Positions 3,600 to 12,289 of a stretch of 21,466 nucleotides of DNA are shown in pieces (position 1 is the stretch's first letter; each line of letters starts with the position of its first letter). Location: positions 1 through 21,466 of the IMG/VR virus record IMGVR_UViG_3300030117_005502, one strand, 5' to 3'. Under the pieces are notes generated by a model, which did not search any database, had not been told where the DNA came from, and saw only the letters and a list, made by a program, of their open reading frames with translations. This stretch comes from a virus. Both the position numbers and the translations under genes were made by a program.

Positions 3600-3623
3600 A
3601 GTCTATATAATTTAATTTATATG

Positions 3624-3656
3624 CAAAGATATATATAAATTTTTTATATAAACAAA
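3624..3656 (-). promoter_or_regulatory. Bacteroidota-type promoter for the leftward operon
   Basis: Read on the minus strand, TATCTTTG (3631-3624) matches the Bacteroidota -7 consensus TAnnTTTG. A TTTG (3656-3653) lies 21 nt upstream, in the right place for the -33 element. Transcription would start near 3617, shortly before the co-chaperonin ATG at 3599. Confidence 0.7.
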
Positions 3657-3679
3657 TTTTTTAGAAATTTTATTAAAGG

Positions 3680-3925
3680 ATATAGGAATCCCCCCTTGGA
3701 AATTCTTTTTCAAGTTTGGATTTCACTCTAGCAGTGCTCCGTTTTACGGGACCCAAGGATACTAATACCGTTGTTAATTCAACACACATACCTATGTGGT
3801 TATGTACCCTAACTAGAGCTTATACGCTCACTCTTTTGCAACTACCGGAGAAAACTCTAATCCTATTTGGATCTACAATCCGATGTCTTTTCCCATTTTT
3901 GGTTACCGTGGGATGAAATTGTTGC
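3680..3925 (-). ncRNA. Candidate structured RNA in the divergent control region
   Basis: This stretch has no minus-strand ORF and is less AT-rich than its surroundings. It follows a TATATTTG promoter. Read on the minus strand, hairpins include TCCCA/TGGGA, ATCC-AAATA-GGAT, GAGC-GTATAA-GCTC, CACAT-AGGT-ATGTG, GTTG-AATTAA-CAAC, CCGT-AAA-ACGG, and a last 8-bp stem GAATTTCC-AAGG-GGGGATTC (3705-3686). That stem needs two G-U pairs, which form only in the minus-strand RNA, and this favours that strand. A further CTCCG/CGGAG pairing is possible at longer range. It could be an independent sRNA or a long leader of the operon starting at 3599. It matches no class I can name. Confidence 0.5.
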
Positions 3926-3929
3926 GATG

Positions 3930-3937
3930 CAAATATA
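3930..3937 (-). promoter_or_regulatory. Promoter -7 box for the candidate RNA
   Basis: TATATTTG on the minus strand matches TAnnTTTG exactly. It lies between the stop of the 41-residue gene (3949) and the structured region, placing a transcription start near 3923. I see no clear -33 TTTG at the right spacing, so strength is uncertain. Confidence 0.5.
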
Positions 3938-3948
3938 TAAATTTTTTT

Positions 3949-4074
3949 TTACTTTCCTTGACCTCGATACTTTTTTTTGTATGCATTTTGTCCTTTAGAT
4001 GCATTTTTACTGTGTACCCCAGGTCTTTTTTTATTCTTAGTGAATCTAAATGTGAATGTGCTTCTAGATGCCAT
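3949..4074 (-). CDS. Small basic protein (41 aa), KKYRGQGK family
   Basis: A short gene on the minus strand encoding 41 residues with no acidic residue. It contains KNKKRPGVHSKNASKG (14-29) and ends AYKKKYRGQGK. The pattern RPGVHxKxxxxK...YKKKYRGQGK is one I recall from many small phage proteins of unknown function, which supports it being real. The basic, Gly/Arg-rich ending suggests RNA or ribosome contact, as in small ribosomal proteins; this is inference. The start ATG follows a TATTTTTG box by 15 nt. An overlapping plus-strand frame (3883-4077) is the shadow of this gene. Confidence 0.7.
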   Translation of the reverse strand: MASRSTFTFRFTKNKKRPGVHSKNASKGQNAYKKKYRGQGK

Positions 4075-4088
4075 TAATTTGTTTTCTA

Positions 4089-4096
4089 CAAAAATA
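4089..4096 (-). promoter_or_regulatory. Promoter -7 box for the 41-residue gene
   Basis: TATTTTTG on the minus strand fits TAnnTTTG and lies 15 nt before the ATG at 4074. A TTTG occurs upstream, but only 11 nt away rather than the usual 19-21, so only the -7 box is supported. Confidence 0.45.
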
Positions 4097-4154
4097 TAAA
4101 AATAAGTCAAATAAAAAAATTTACCAAAAAAATTTTTTCAACATTGTTTTTGTG

Positions 4155-4171
4155 AAAGTGGGAACCACTTT
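4155..4171. promoter_or_regulatory. Perfect hairpin between the divergent operons
   Basis: AAAGTGG-GAA-CCACTTT is a 7-bp perfect inverted repeat, equivalent on both strands. Right after it, CAAAG and CTTTG (4175-4179 and 4188-4192) can form a second hairpin. It lies between the minus-strand promoters and the first rightward gene. It could be an operator for a dimeric regulator or an RNA hairpin in the leader of the gene at 4239. There is no U-run on either side, so a terminator is unlikely. Confidence 0.4.
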
Positions 4172-4238
4172 GATCAAAGACCCCTACTTTGTTTCGATTA
4201 TTAGATAGCCCGTGTATTAACTTTAAAATTTAGAAATT

Positions 4239-4466: not shown

Positions 4467-4469
4467 AAA

Positions 4470-4502
4470 GAAAGGGAGGCTTGTGAAAGCCTTTCCTTTT
4501 AC
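4470..4502 (+). terminator. Intrinsic terminator after the first rightward gene
   Basis: A purine-rich strand ending GGGAGGCTT pairs across a GTGA tetraloop with AAGCC and a CTTTCC tract. The stem is about 11 bp with one bulged T and ends in a short TTTT run. It begins four bases after the TAG stop. Confidence 0.65.
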
Positions 4503-4593
4503 AATTTAGAATATTTCACATTAATTATCTCACGACTATTGCTACTTTGATAGATGATAGCGATGATGAATTGATGTTTCCAAGGAATTAGTT

Positions 4594-4632
4594 GTGTGAG
4601 TACGACAAGTAAGTCTCTCACACCACTTTTTC
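4594..4632 (+). terminator. Possible terminator or attenuator stem
   Basis: GTGTGAG (4594-4600) pairs with CTCACAC (4617-4623), followed within a few bases by a run of six T (4627-4632). An upstream CTCAC (4529-4533) could pair instead with GTGAG in the 5' arm, so two exclusive folds are possible. The surrounding 4503-4593 has no ORF; it holds short complementary segments such as GCTA/TAGC but nothing I can name. Confidence 0.4.
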
Positions 4633-4682
4633 CGCTTTTTTGTAAAACTATTTTTAAAAACTATTAAATAAATATAACATTT

Positions 4683-4793
4683 TAATAAAGAAAGTACAGC
4701 TAGGTGGTAGACGGCTATATAAACCGTTGTAAGATTTGGACACGTGATCTGAAGCCAGCACCTGAAACATATATACTAGCACTTTCTTTATTA
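4683..4793 (+). ncRNA. Structured intergenic RNA A, closed by an 18-bp stem
   Basis: The 13-nt TAATAAAGAAAGT (4683-4695) is perfectly complementary to 4781-4793, and after a 3-nt bulge GCTAG/CTAGC adds five pairs. Inside, ACGG/CCGT (4711-4714 with 4724-4727), AGAT/ATCT (4732-4735 with 4747-4750) and an alternative AGGTG/CACCT (4702-4706 with 4759-4763) give a multibranch, cloverleaf-like layout. There is no tRNA T-loop, CCA or anticodon arm, so it is not a tRNA. It ends 16 nt before the next ATG. It may be a processed sRNA or a cis element controlling the next gene. Confidence 0.6.
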
Positions 4794-4809
4794 CTTTAAA
4801 TTAAATATA

Positions 4810-5046: not shown

Positions 5047-5064
5047 AATATTAACCAAATTAAT

Positions 5065-5174
5065 TAAATGAATGAGTTAGGAGTAATTACCTAAGTAATG
5101 GTGTTCTAGACACTTTGGGAAACTAAATATAGCCTTGCAAGACGCTGGAGATACATTACGTACTCATTCATTTA
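5065..5174 (+). ncRNA. Structured intergenic RNA B, closed by a 13-bp stem
   Basis: TAAATGAATGAGT (5065-5077) is perfectly complementary to 5162-5174. Internal helices include GTAAT/ATTAC (5083-5087 with 5155-5159) and the hairpin GTGT-TCTAG-ACAC (5101-5113). It occupies nearly the whole gap between two genes, starting 18 nt after a stop and ending 24 nt before the next ATG. It shares size and design with RNA A but little sequence. Confidence 0.55.
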
Positions 5175-5198
5175 GTACTGTTCTACAAACTAAATACA

Positions 5199-5339
5199 AT
5201 GAAACTAACTAATAAACATAAAAGAAAAATTAAAAGACAATTAGATTTAGAATTAGGTGTTAAACCTTATAAATCTAAAATACATAAAAATAAAAAGAAA
5301 TATAATCGTAAATCAAAACATAAAAATCATGAGCAATAA
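5199..5339 (+). CDS. Small, very basic protein (46 aa)
   Basis: Translation from the ATG at 5199 gives 46 residues, over a third Lys/Arg: it starts MKLTNKHKRKIKRQLDLELG and ends in repeated Lys/His/Asn (HKNKKKYNRKSKHKNHEQ). Only a short amphipathic middle is not basic. The composition suggests RNA or DNA binding, as in small ribosome-associated or nucleoid proteins; no family recognised. The stop overlaps the next gene's start by 11 nt, and the leader is A-rich, which supports it as real. It follows RNA B immediately. Confidence 0.6.
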   Translation: MKLTNKHKRKIKRQLDLELGVKPYKSKIHKNKKKYNRKSKHKNHEQ

Positions 5340-5514
5340 TAGAGGAAATGTATCATTAGCTAAAGAATTAGCTTTAAAAGATATTGCAAAATATATGAAA
5401 AAGAAATTAAAGAAACAAACAAATTGTTATTGGCTTGGTATTAATATTATTACTGCAAGTAAATTACGGGAATGTAGAGAAATAACTCAACTCAATAGAG
5501 AATTAGGGTTATAA
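5329..5514 (+). CDS. Small hypothetical protein (61 aa), upstream of the large RNA
   Basis: A 61-residue protein (MSNNRGNVSLAKELALKDIAK...) with a basic helical middle (YMKKKLKKQTN) and a C-terminal helix. The frame is open further upstream to 5257, but those codons lie inside the 46-residue gene and read as low-quality sequence. The ATG at 5329 is preferred because it overlaps the upstream stop by 11 nt, as elsewhere in this genome. The stop at 5514 abuts the large RNA. Confidence 0.55.
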   Translation: MSNNRGNVSLAKELALKDIAKYMKKKLKKQTNCYWLGINIITASKLRECREITQLNRELGL

Positions 5515-6266
5515 GTCGTCTGAGCGACTATAAATAGACTTTAGGCTCAGAGCGTGTTAGATTTATATCTAACGGTAGTAGGCTTGACTAGATAAGCACA
5601 GTAATGTGCCCAAAGATGAATATAGGAACGAAGAAACTATATTTGTTGCCAGCAATGGTCAATTCAAGCAAGCAGTATATCATACAGCACCAACGGGGTA
5701 GTCCCTGAGAGTAAGTATGTTTCCTTGTTATTAGGGAAATGAGCTAGTGATAGCAATAAGAAAAACTGTAGATTTAGTGTCGAGTTAACTCTCCAAGTTA
5801 ATTAGATGTATAAATCAGTATAAATGGTAGTCTTAGAGAATAAGATTATCATAAAATACGATGACGATGGAAAGTCATACGTGAGTAGTATAGTATTTTG
5901 TCTCTCAAAAGGAGATGAAGCTATTAAATAGCTACTACTTGCATGATAGCTTCACACATAATAATAACAAAGAGAAAATGCTATTTCGTTAAACATTGAA
6001 AGATGACTAATTCTGAGCACATATAAGTGAACTTAGATGCATTGATGCCTCAAGCTGATATGTATTTCAAAAGAAAGTCAGGTATGGGACGGCCATCCTA
6101 TCACCTCGTATGAGTATTTTGTGAGTAAATGTTAACGTTAAGAGTGATTAGCTATACTAATCGTCATTGCACATTACTATTGGAGACAATAGTGGATAAG
6201 TTGTAAACCCATTAATGGAATTAAGCAACGAAAGATGTGTCGTAATAACTGTAATCTCAGGTTATT
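5515..6266 (+). ncRNA. Large ornate structured RNA, about 750 nt
   Basis: No frame is open here, yet local helices cover most of the stretch: TCTGAGC/GCTCAGA (5519-5525 with 5545-5551); GTTAGAT-TTAT-ATCTAAC (5556-5573); GCACA-GTAA-TGTGC, a GNRA loop (5596-5609); AATATAG/CTATATT (5619-5643); an 8-bp stem (5720-5739); an 8-bp stem (5783-5803); a 12-bp stem with GAGAA loop (5824-5852); AAAATAC/GTATTTT around ATGAC/GTCAT (5853-5899); TGAAGCTAT/ATAGCTTCA (5916-5954); GGTATGGGA with a bulged partner (6081-6105); an 8-bp stem (6144-6164); a 9-bp stem with a GAGA loop (6174-6195); and AATAAC/GTTATT (6244-6266). Size and phage setting recall the GOLLD and ROOL classes of large RNAs, but I cannot confirm membership. 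Strand is inferred from the flanking genes and from G-U pairs. Confidence 0.75.
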
Positions 6267-6293
6267 TATTATTAACATTTAAGCATTAAAAGT

Positions 6294-6599
6294 ATGAAAA
6301 AAGATTCAGCAATATATCAATATGAAAAAGATAAAAAACAAACTAATAATAAAATGAAAAATAAAAAATCAAGTTATATTGGATCAGCTATTGGATTTAT
6401 AGGACTTTTATTAATTACATTAATATTATTATTTAGTTCTTGTAGCGGCACAGCGCATTTAACAATAGAGCAAGAACAAAAGTTAAATAAAATAGATTAT
6501 CAATTAAGTAAATTATGGGATACATATCAATATGAATCTGATAGTTTAATATTAGAATACGATAATATAATTAATAAACCTAAAAAACCTAAAAAATGA
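6294..6599 (+). CDS. Small membrane-anchored or lipoprotein-like protein
   Basis: A 101-residue protein. Residues 28-47 (YIGSAIGFIGLLLITLILLF) form a hydrophobic segment followed directly by SSCSG, a plausible lipobox (F-S-S-C) for signal peptidase II. The rest is a hydrophilic, helical tail ending in KPKKPKK. If it is a lipoprotein, the better start is the internal ATG at 6354, which gives a short MKNKKSS n-region; the start at 6294 has the usual leader but puts 27 polar residues before the membrane segment. Phage lipoproteins of this size often block superinfection or act in lysis (o-spanins). It starts 27 nt after the large RNA and overlaps the next gene (ATGA). Confidence 0.65.
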   Translation: MKKDSAIYQYEKDKKQTNNKMKNKKSSYIGSAIGFIGLLLITLILLFSSCSGTAHLTIEQEQKLNKIDYQLSKLWDTYQYESDSLILEYDNIINKPKKPKK

Positions 6600-6856: not shown

Positions 6857-7453
6857 ATGGCAAATTATGCAAAAGGTTCCATGGATACCTTAAATCCTGG
6901 AGACACTCTACTTGTAGGTGCAAGAAAAGTAAATGGCGATAAAATTCAATTAGAATTTGCTGAGATTGTACAAACTTCTGACAGACCTGCAAGTTTATTA
7001 ACATTATTAAACAAATCTGATGAAAGATTTGCAACTAGAGCTCGTAGAGCTTGGATTACAGCTACTCCAAGTGATGCTTCTGAGATATTTTCAATAAATT
7101 TTGGAGATGATGGGGAGTGGTATATGAGTGAAAAAGGTGAAATAATGGATATTAATCTTCTTAATCCTGAAAATAATGGAATGAGAATGAAATTAAGAAT
7201 CTATGAAACAACTACTCCTAGCAAGTGGCAAGAGCAAAATCTTGAAACTTCTGCAAAGCGTAGAGGTAGAGATGGTGATTATATAACTCACAACGGTGAT
7301 TATATTTTCAGCAACACGGACATGATATTAACTAATGATGAAGTTAAACATGTTTTGCTAGAATCAGATAGTAATGCAATTAAAATTGAAGATGAAAAAG
7401 TTGAAGAAAAGAAGGAAGTTTTTGATAATGCAGAAGCTAATTTAGGATTCTAA
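6857..7453 (+). CDS. Hypothetical protein with an acidic SSB-like tail
   Basis: A 198-residue protein I do not recognise. The first 130 residues look mainly beta (TLLVGARKVNGDKIQLEFAE, WITATPSDASEIFSINF, MRMKLRIYETT), followed by a basic stretch (SAKRRGRDGDYI) and a very acidic end (IKIEDEKVEEKKEVFDNAEANLGF). A folded core plus an acidic tail ending in Gly-Phe resembles ssDNA-binding proteins, whose last residues recruit partners (compare the SSB at 15473, ending DLPF). No OB-fold motif is clear. It has the strong leader element and is followed by a terminator, suggesting high expression as the last gene of its transcript. Confidence 0.75.
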   Translation: MANYAKGSMDTLNPGDTLLVGARKVNGDKIQLEFAEIVQTSDRPASLLTLLNKSDERFATRARRAWITATPSDASEIFSINFGDDGEWYMSEKGEIMDINLLNPENNGMRMKLRIYETTTPSKWQEQNLETSAKRRGRDGDYITHNGDYIFSNTDMILTNDEVKHVLLESDSNAIKIEDEKVEEKKEVFDNAEANLGF

Positions 7454-11132: not shown

Positions 11133-12289
11133 ACAATTTAAACAAAATTAAAGATGAACAACAAAGAATGGCGCTCAATAATTGGGTCAAAAAAGGTCAA
11201 ATTGGTAGCATTATTGCTGGTACTGGCTTTGGCAAATCAAGATGCGGGTGCCTCGCTATTAGAAAAATGCTTAATAGTAATTCTAATGGTAGTGCTCTTA
11301 TATTAGTGCCAACACAAAACTTACAGACACAATTTAAAGAAGAGCTTATAAAATGGGGATGCGAAGATGTATTAGATAGAGTAGAAATATTATGCTATCA
11401 ATCTGCATATAAACTAAAAGATAATCATTATCATATAGTTGTATGCGATGAAATACATCTTGGTCTTTCTCCTGAATATAGAAAATTCTTTGAAAACAAC
11501 ACTTGGGATAAATTATTATGTATGACTGCTACTCCTCCAGAGGAATTAGAATATAAAGAATATTTATATAAATTAGCACCAATAGCTTACAAAATAACTT
11601 TAGATCAATGTGTAAAATTAGAATTAGTATCCCCTTATGAAGTAATATGTATACCTATAAAATTAAGTGAAGAAGAGAAAAAAGAGTATAAAAAAGCAAA
11701 CAATTTGTTTGTTTACACTAAATATAAATTAGGTCAGTTTGATGCTTTTGATCAAGCAAAATATATATTAAAGAATAAAACTTCTAGTTCTGAAGAGAAA
11801 CAACATGCCGTACAGTTTTATAGAGCTATTCGTCAACGTAAAGCAGTTGTAGATCATGCTATTGGAAAGATAGAAATGCTACAAAAAATAGTTATAAATA
11901 ATACAGGCGAAAAGATTCTAGTATTTGGAGGCTCTAATGAGTTTACAAATCAATTAGCTGAGGCAACATGTTGTGTTTCAACTATATATCATAGTGGTAA
12001 AACTAAAAAACAGAGAGAAAAAGCATTAGAAGATTTTAAATCAGGTGATAAACCTGTTTTATGTTCTACTAAAGCTCTTAATCAAGGTTTTGATGTTGCT
12101 GACGCCACAACAGCCGTGATATGTGGGCTTACTTCTAAAAGTTTGACTATGATCCAGCGTGTAGGTAGAATTATTAGATACCAAGAAAATAAAATTGGTA
12201 AAATAATTATACTATATGTTAAAGATAGTCAGGAGGAAAAATGGCTGAAAAATAGCGTTAAATCACTTAAAAATGTGATTTGGAAATAA
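11117..12289 (+). CDS. Superfamily 2 helicase
   Basis: A 390-residue ATP-driven DNA helicase or translocase with both RecA-like lobes. Walker A AGTGFGKS (34-41), motif Ia PTQNLQTQF, motif II DEIH (111-114), motif III TAT (137-139), and in lobe 2 STKALNQGFDV and motif VI QRVGRIIR (347-354). The compact layout resembles RAD25/UvsW-like or SNF2-like phage helicases, used in replication fork remodelling and recombination. crAss-like phages carry an SNF2-family enzyme in this module (established), but I cannot settle the subfamily by eye. It overlaps the winged-helix gene by 16 nt. Confidence 0.9.
   Translation: MEVQINNLNKIKDEQQRMALNNWVKKGQIGSIIAGTGFGKSRCGCLAIRKMLNSNSNGSALILVPTQNLQTQFKEELIKWGCEDVLDRVEILCYQSAYKLKDNHYHIVVCDEIHLGLSPEYRKFFENNTWDKLLCMTATPPEELEYKEYLYKLAPIAYKITLDQCVKLELVSPYEVICIPIKLSEEEKKEYKKANNLFVYTKYKLGQFDAFDQAKYILKNKTSSSEEKQHAVQFYRAIRQRKAVVDHAIGKIEMLQKIVINNTGEKILVFGGSNEFTNQLAEATCCVSTIYHSGKTKKQREKALEDFKSGDKPVLCSTKALNQGFDVADATTAVICGLTSKSLTMIQRVGRIIRYQENKIGKIIILYVKDSQEEKWLKNSVKSLKNVIWK

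Follow-up and report, generated by a model that had tools for sequence, protein, structure and literature searches.

Genes and folded elements of the window

The window analysed here is the whole of a single virus record, 21,466 bases in length. Its minus strand carries a terminase fragment, a GroES-like protein and small genes, and its plus strand carries a replication block (PolA, helicases, primase, exonuclease, resolvase and rIIA-like). The GOLLD RNA described below is therefore phage-encoded, as its record holds terminase, replication and rIIA-like genes. The closest database relatives of the PolA protein come from uncultured faecal and crAss-like phages at ~30% identity, so that kinship with these phages is distant at most. 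No tRNA or tmRNA was found within the window. Matches to sigma-70-type promoters and to Bacteroidetes-type promoter patterns were no more frequent than in shuffled sequence, and we thus claim no promoter. The features of the locus are as follows.

5199..5514, plus strand: two small overlapping ORFs, 5199-5339 (46 aa) and 5329-5514 (61 aa) (ORF scan and sequence)
5514..5580, plus strand: Pistol self-cleaving ribozyme, predicted cut G5575/U5576 in the P3/P2 junction (RF02679)
5576..5880, plus strand: GOLLD 5′ domain, outside the Rfam model, with helix P1 from 5582; homologous in 11 other distinct sequences
5881..6263, plus strand: GOLLD conserved 3′ region, ending in GTAATCTCAG (RF02032, 192.7 bits, model positions 1-416)
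6264..6271, plus strand: probable last GOLLD bases, forming the 3′ side of a long-range helix (helix 10) whose 5′ side lies where the 5′ domain ends
6294..6599, plus strand: next gene, lipoprotein-like (LFSSCSG), outside the RNA (ORF scan)

The sequence-only reading proposed a large structured noncoding RNA at 5515-6266, and the folding energy bears this out. The plus strand folds at -190.8 kcal/mol, compared with -164.0 ± 5.1 kcal/mol for 20 shuffles, none of which is as low (z -5.3; minus strand, z -2.3). The absence of an open frame also holds, with zero ORFs of at least 50 aa on either strand of 5515-6293, and the proposed boundaries are near exact, with the Pistol match starting at 5514 and the GOLLD match running to 6263. 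The two small ORFs lie immediately upstream, the stop codon of the second (5512-5514) sharing its last base with the start of the Pistol; from this spacing and layout they are probably co-transcribed with the Pistol and GOLLD. The lipoprotein-like gene that follows has no PHROG match, and a comparable small lipoprotein-like ORF was seen by inspection upstream of GOLLD in another contig, G042. For the neighbour protein at 6857-7453, two distant relatives were recovered, both without GOLLD.

The same reading held that all intergenic gaps are under 40 nt, which is incorrect: 3600-4238, 4467-4809 and 5047-5198 are stretches of 150-640 nt without convincing genes, and another conserved RNA sits in one of them. 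This second structured RNA (~265 nt; 3660-3932, minus strand) lies upstream of the GroES-like gene, with a Bacteroidetes-type promoter-like motif, TATATTTG, identified by eye just before it. Searched against Rfam up to E 5, it gave nothing beyond a chance hit at E 2.7, and there was no match among 50,697 phage records. Homologues are present in 16 IMG/VR contigs, and the 13 distinct aligned sequences (window included) display 12 compensatory pairs, a count reached by none of 500 shuffles. It is a candidate new RNA class and not a GOLLD accessory, since GOLLD was not found in 13 contigs bearing it (many of which are short). Two further folded stretches lie on the plus strand. The first, 5063-5180 (~120 nt), is closed by a long perfect stem (AAATGAATGAGT / ACTCATTCATTT), with z -4.2 against shuffles and no Rfam match. 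The second, 4684-4795, has a similar layout, in which a 12-bp closing stem (AATAAAGAAAGT / ACTTTCTTTATT) surrounds a folded stretch, and is weaker (z -2.0).

A divergent GOLLD RNA

A scan of the whole window against all Rfam families returned exactly two, Pistol and GOLLD, both on the plus strand, and no ROOL. The GOLLD match covers all 416 of the 416 model positions at a score above the cut-off of 150 bits. RF02032 models the conserved 3′ region alone, so that the 5′ domain lies outside it; the ~300 nt separating the Pistol and RF02032 matches correspond to this 5′ domain. Most GOLLDs on other viral contigs score 250-340 bits, so that the window GOLLD is divergent yet clearly within the family. 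Its 5′ domain gives only weak profile matches in typical GOLLDs (best E 1e-6).

Searching IMG/VR with a 5′-domain pattern recovered 12 stretches, every one with a GOLLD core. Together with the window these form a clade of 13 contigs; as L220 and L222 are identical in sequence, 12 distinct sequences remain, which can be aligned across the entire predicted RNA. The consensus fold comprises 182 pairs, with 97.2% of cells paired and 78 pairs compensatory. Since this fold comes from the very alignment on which it is scored, the paired percentage is biased upwards, and the compensatory counts are the stronger support: none of 500 shuffles reaches 78, and slid controls give 10-16. Helices 1-9, which belong to the 5′ domain, contain 67 pairs, 31 of them compensatory. 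The conserved RNA has its 5′ border at helix P1 (columns 3-8 with 102-107; three compensatory pairs), and the sequence upstream of P1 varies between lineages. At the other end, helix 10 (columns 266-272 with 749-755) is paired in 87% of cells, with two compensatory pairs. The GTAA and GAGA loops picked out earlier cap helices 2 and 25 and form in 12 of 12 homologues. A scan of genome contigs yielded one contig, from a Ruminococcaceae bin, in which the 5′-domain profile found no match.

These results also settle the class of the RNA, which had been proposed as a divergent GOLLD or ROOL or as a new class. The GOLLD assignment stands on the RF02032 match and the covariation; ROOL and a new class do not. 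That the region is a new large-RNA class, a ROOL or a decayed gene is very improbable: its sole support is a score below that of most phage GOLLDs, and it is refuted by a full-length, above-threshold GOLLD match, by compensatory changes throughout, by the lack of an open frame and by the absence of a ROOL match in the Rfam scan. ROOL is likewise a giant cage-forming phage RNA (PMC12286853), unrelated in sequence to the window RNA. The idea of a single large RNA needs amending, since its first 67 nt form an element of their own, the overlooked and less expected Pistol, and the remainder is GOLLD. The region is a divergent member of the known GOLLD family in an apparently new arrangement, with a 5′ end predicted to be ribozyme-made.

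The solved GOLLD structure, that of the marine env-38 RNA, is a closed homo-oligomeric cage of 14 subunits in which the 5′ domains form the caps (PMC12286853). Like env-38, the window RNA is phage-encoded and has a full 3′ region that fits the RF02032 model, with a separate, less conserved 5′ domain upstream. It differs in its length (~695 nt versus 833 nt), in its divergence as measured by the bit score, in the absence of tRNAs from its linker and surroundings, and in the self-cleaving ribozyme directly ahead of it. Proximity to tRNAs is a frequent GOLLD setting, neither obligatory nor family-defining, and tRNA genes inside the GOLLD linker are reported for other GOLLDs. Four of the loci compared here (L157, L159, L160 and L161) carry tRNA genes within the linker of the core, at ~+65 to +140 from the core start.

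The Pistol ribozyme at the GOLLD border

The RF02679 match scores 74.7 bits (cut-off 34.5) over model positions 1-68, the full length of the model, and the conserved Pistol core bases match in the Rfam alignment. As in known Pistols, P1, P2, P3 and the pseudoknot are present, the setting is a phage and a stop codon adjoins the ribozyme (RF02679; PMC4604425). Pistol cleaves at the two-nucleotide junction between P3 and P2, the two bases of which are variable (PMC4604425); they are GU in the window (5575-5576) and AU in G036 and L220. What sets this Pistol apart from known ones is a predicted cut at the point where a giant RNA begins.

The Pistol precedes GOLLD in 5 of the 13 clade contigs (4 distinct sequences: the window, G011, G036 and L220/L222), in all of which the order and strand are the same and the Pistol lies 300-365 nt from the GOLLD core. 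Although there are only four distinct GOLLD-linked copies, 10 of 21 Pistol pairs are compensatory, compared with at most one in slid controls. The ribozyme's P1, pseudoknot, P2 and P3 each include a compensatory change, and 98.8% of cells are paired across these four copies. GOLLD helix P1 starts pairing at 5582, six nucleotides 3′ of the predicted cut, G5575|U5576. This spacing is also six nucleotides in G011; in G036 and L220/L222 a 45-nt hairpin is inserted. With a cut six nucleotides before P1, the ribozyme should release a GOLLD RNA of ~695 nt from the upstream mRNA. By analogy with studied family members, the window Pistol would be expected to cleave.

We surveyed the pairing from both sides. 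A GOLLD 3′-end pattern returned 80 records, 77 with a GOLLD match, and among these only G036 has a Pistol. In an Rfam scan of 60 GOLLD loci including ~1.5 kb upstream, no known ribozyme of any other class was found, and the 58 loci besides G011 and G036 have no known ribozyme ahead of GOLLD. From the other side, two Pistol-core patterns returned 24 contigs, of which four (G011, G036, L220 and L222) contain GOLLD and the remaining 20 have no GOLLD match. The pairing is therefore restricted to one GOLLD clade. An upstream tRNA as the general counterpart of the Pistol was considered and rejected: a tRNA ~380-420 nt before the core occurs in only 2 of the 60 loci (L160 and L161), and in the majority 1.5 kb of upstream sequence contains no tRNA and no ribozyme.

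The Pistols that lack GOLLD bear on what the ribozyme serves. In most such phage contigs, including named Curtobacterium and Microbacterium phages, the Pistol begins 0-12 nt after a stop codon, and beside the Pistols of these phages and of the other contigs no known RNA, GOLLD or other, was found except in G011. This would fit a Pistol that gives the upstream mRNA a defined, structured 3′ end, the 5′ end of GOLLD being a by-product. We consider this unlikely, as in the window and G011 the predicted cut falls right at the conserved 5′ border of GOLLD, and the upstream ORFs of these two are different. The Pistols of Microbacterium phage Count (L224:3002-3070) and Curtobacterium phage Pippin15 (L225:3003-3076) are unannotated in their records; both overlap the end of an annotated gene, and no long gene lies in the stretch after.

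Within the clade, the Pistol is patchy. The tree requires three changes, and well-supported branches alone force at least two gains or losses. Together with the absence of a Pistol from most GOLLDs, this could point to a mobile or neutral hitchhiker, inserted by chance at the GOLLD border, then inherited, and cutting without selected use. Against this, separate lineages have the Pistol at the same position, and compensatory changes maintain all of its helices, pseudoknot included, in copies that have diverged; we rate this explanation as improbable. As most GOLLDs have no Pistol, including those of 8 of the 13 clade contigs, trimming by a ribozyme is not generally required.

Proposed maturation of GOLLD with and without the ribozyme

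A closer comparison is offered by G011, L220, L217 and L219, which have a downstream small gene (MNKVK..) in common and an upstream gene from one family. In G011 and L220, a terminator-like hairpin comes after this upstream gene, and then two more ORFs, the Pistol and GOLLD, with 12 nt (G011) or ~60 nt (L220) between stop codon and Pistol. In L217, which has no Pistol, a terminator (GGGGCACATCCGTGTGTCCC and a T-rich tail, 11890-11909) comes next after the gene, with GOLLD 88 nt further on; L219, also without a Pistol, has the same sequence by inspection. With a terminator directly before GOLLD, transcription start could set the 5′ end in these two contigs. The comparison is no more than suggestive; it fits a division in which a GOLLD behind ORFs is cut free by the Pistol and a GOLLD that is first in its unit needs no cut. 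Several members without a Pistol, G042 among them, have an ORF closely before GOLLD and no evident terminator.

In L214 (2282-2440) and also in L215, L216 and L218, a conserved element of ~155 nt lies directly upstream of GOLLD, in the place that the Pistol takes in other phages. The element has no Rfam match, and its core, CAAGCCTTGACGTGGCGATGNNGCTT, also occurs away from GOLLD in L220, L222, L245 and L246. It is possibly a small structured RNA or ribozyme.

We think it likely that a cis-acting Pistol generates the 5′ end of the phage GOLLD RNA in the window, the freed RNA then probably forming a cage. A single transcript would span the small ORFs, the Pistol and GOLLD, and the folded Pistol would cut at its predicted site. 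The ribozyme would stay behind as a structured 3′ tail of the upstream mRNA, ending in a 2′,3′-cyclic phosphate, and GOLLD would gain a uniform 5′-hydroxyl end just before its first helix. In the freed RNA, the 5′ domain would form a cap and the 3′ region a ring, probably of a closed homo-oligomeric cage such as that of env-38; cage assembly is here suggested by analogy with studied family members. An mRNA leader left on the 5′ domains would be expected to obstruct the caps. Co-transcription and a need for trimming are suggested by the layout of a locus in which the identity, order, spacing, recurrence and covariation of Pistol and GOLLD are observed. We also lean towards a reading in which a dedicated ribozyme can mature GOLLD, a polycistronic transcript thereby yielding the subunits of an RNA-only cage, and in which related lineages swap in a terminator and their own start.

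A related case is that of the theta (HDV-like) ribozymes, which process phage tRNAs (PMC10879173): there too a phage self-cleaving ribozyme lies beside a functional noncoding RNA, but both the ribozyme class and the RNA are different, and GOLLD is not mentioned in the text of that paper. The term 'self-cleav' is absent from the GOLLD structural paper. No paper mentioning both GOLLD and pistol was found in the literature searched, which excludes the discovery papers of Weinberg and colleagues (2009, 2015). GOLLD and Pistol are each known, and their pairing appears new, with the reservation that those papers lie outside the search and an earlier mention is possible.

GOLLD is among the few natural RNA-only cages. 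Its expression goes up as phage-infected cells lyse, and its function is stated as unknown (PMC12286853). A ribozyme at the GOLLD 5′ border predicts the exact mature 5′ end, carrying a 5′-hydroxyl, and a dead ribozyme would provide a simple genetic handle on whether assembly needs removal of the leader. The pairing also suggests one concrete job for the Pistol ribozymes of phages.
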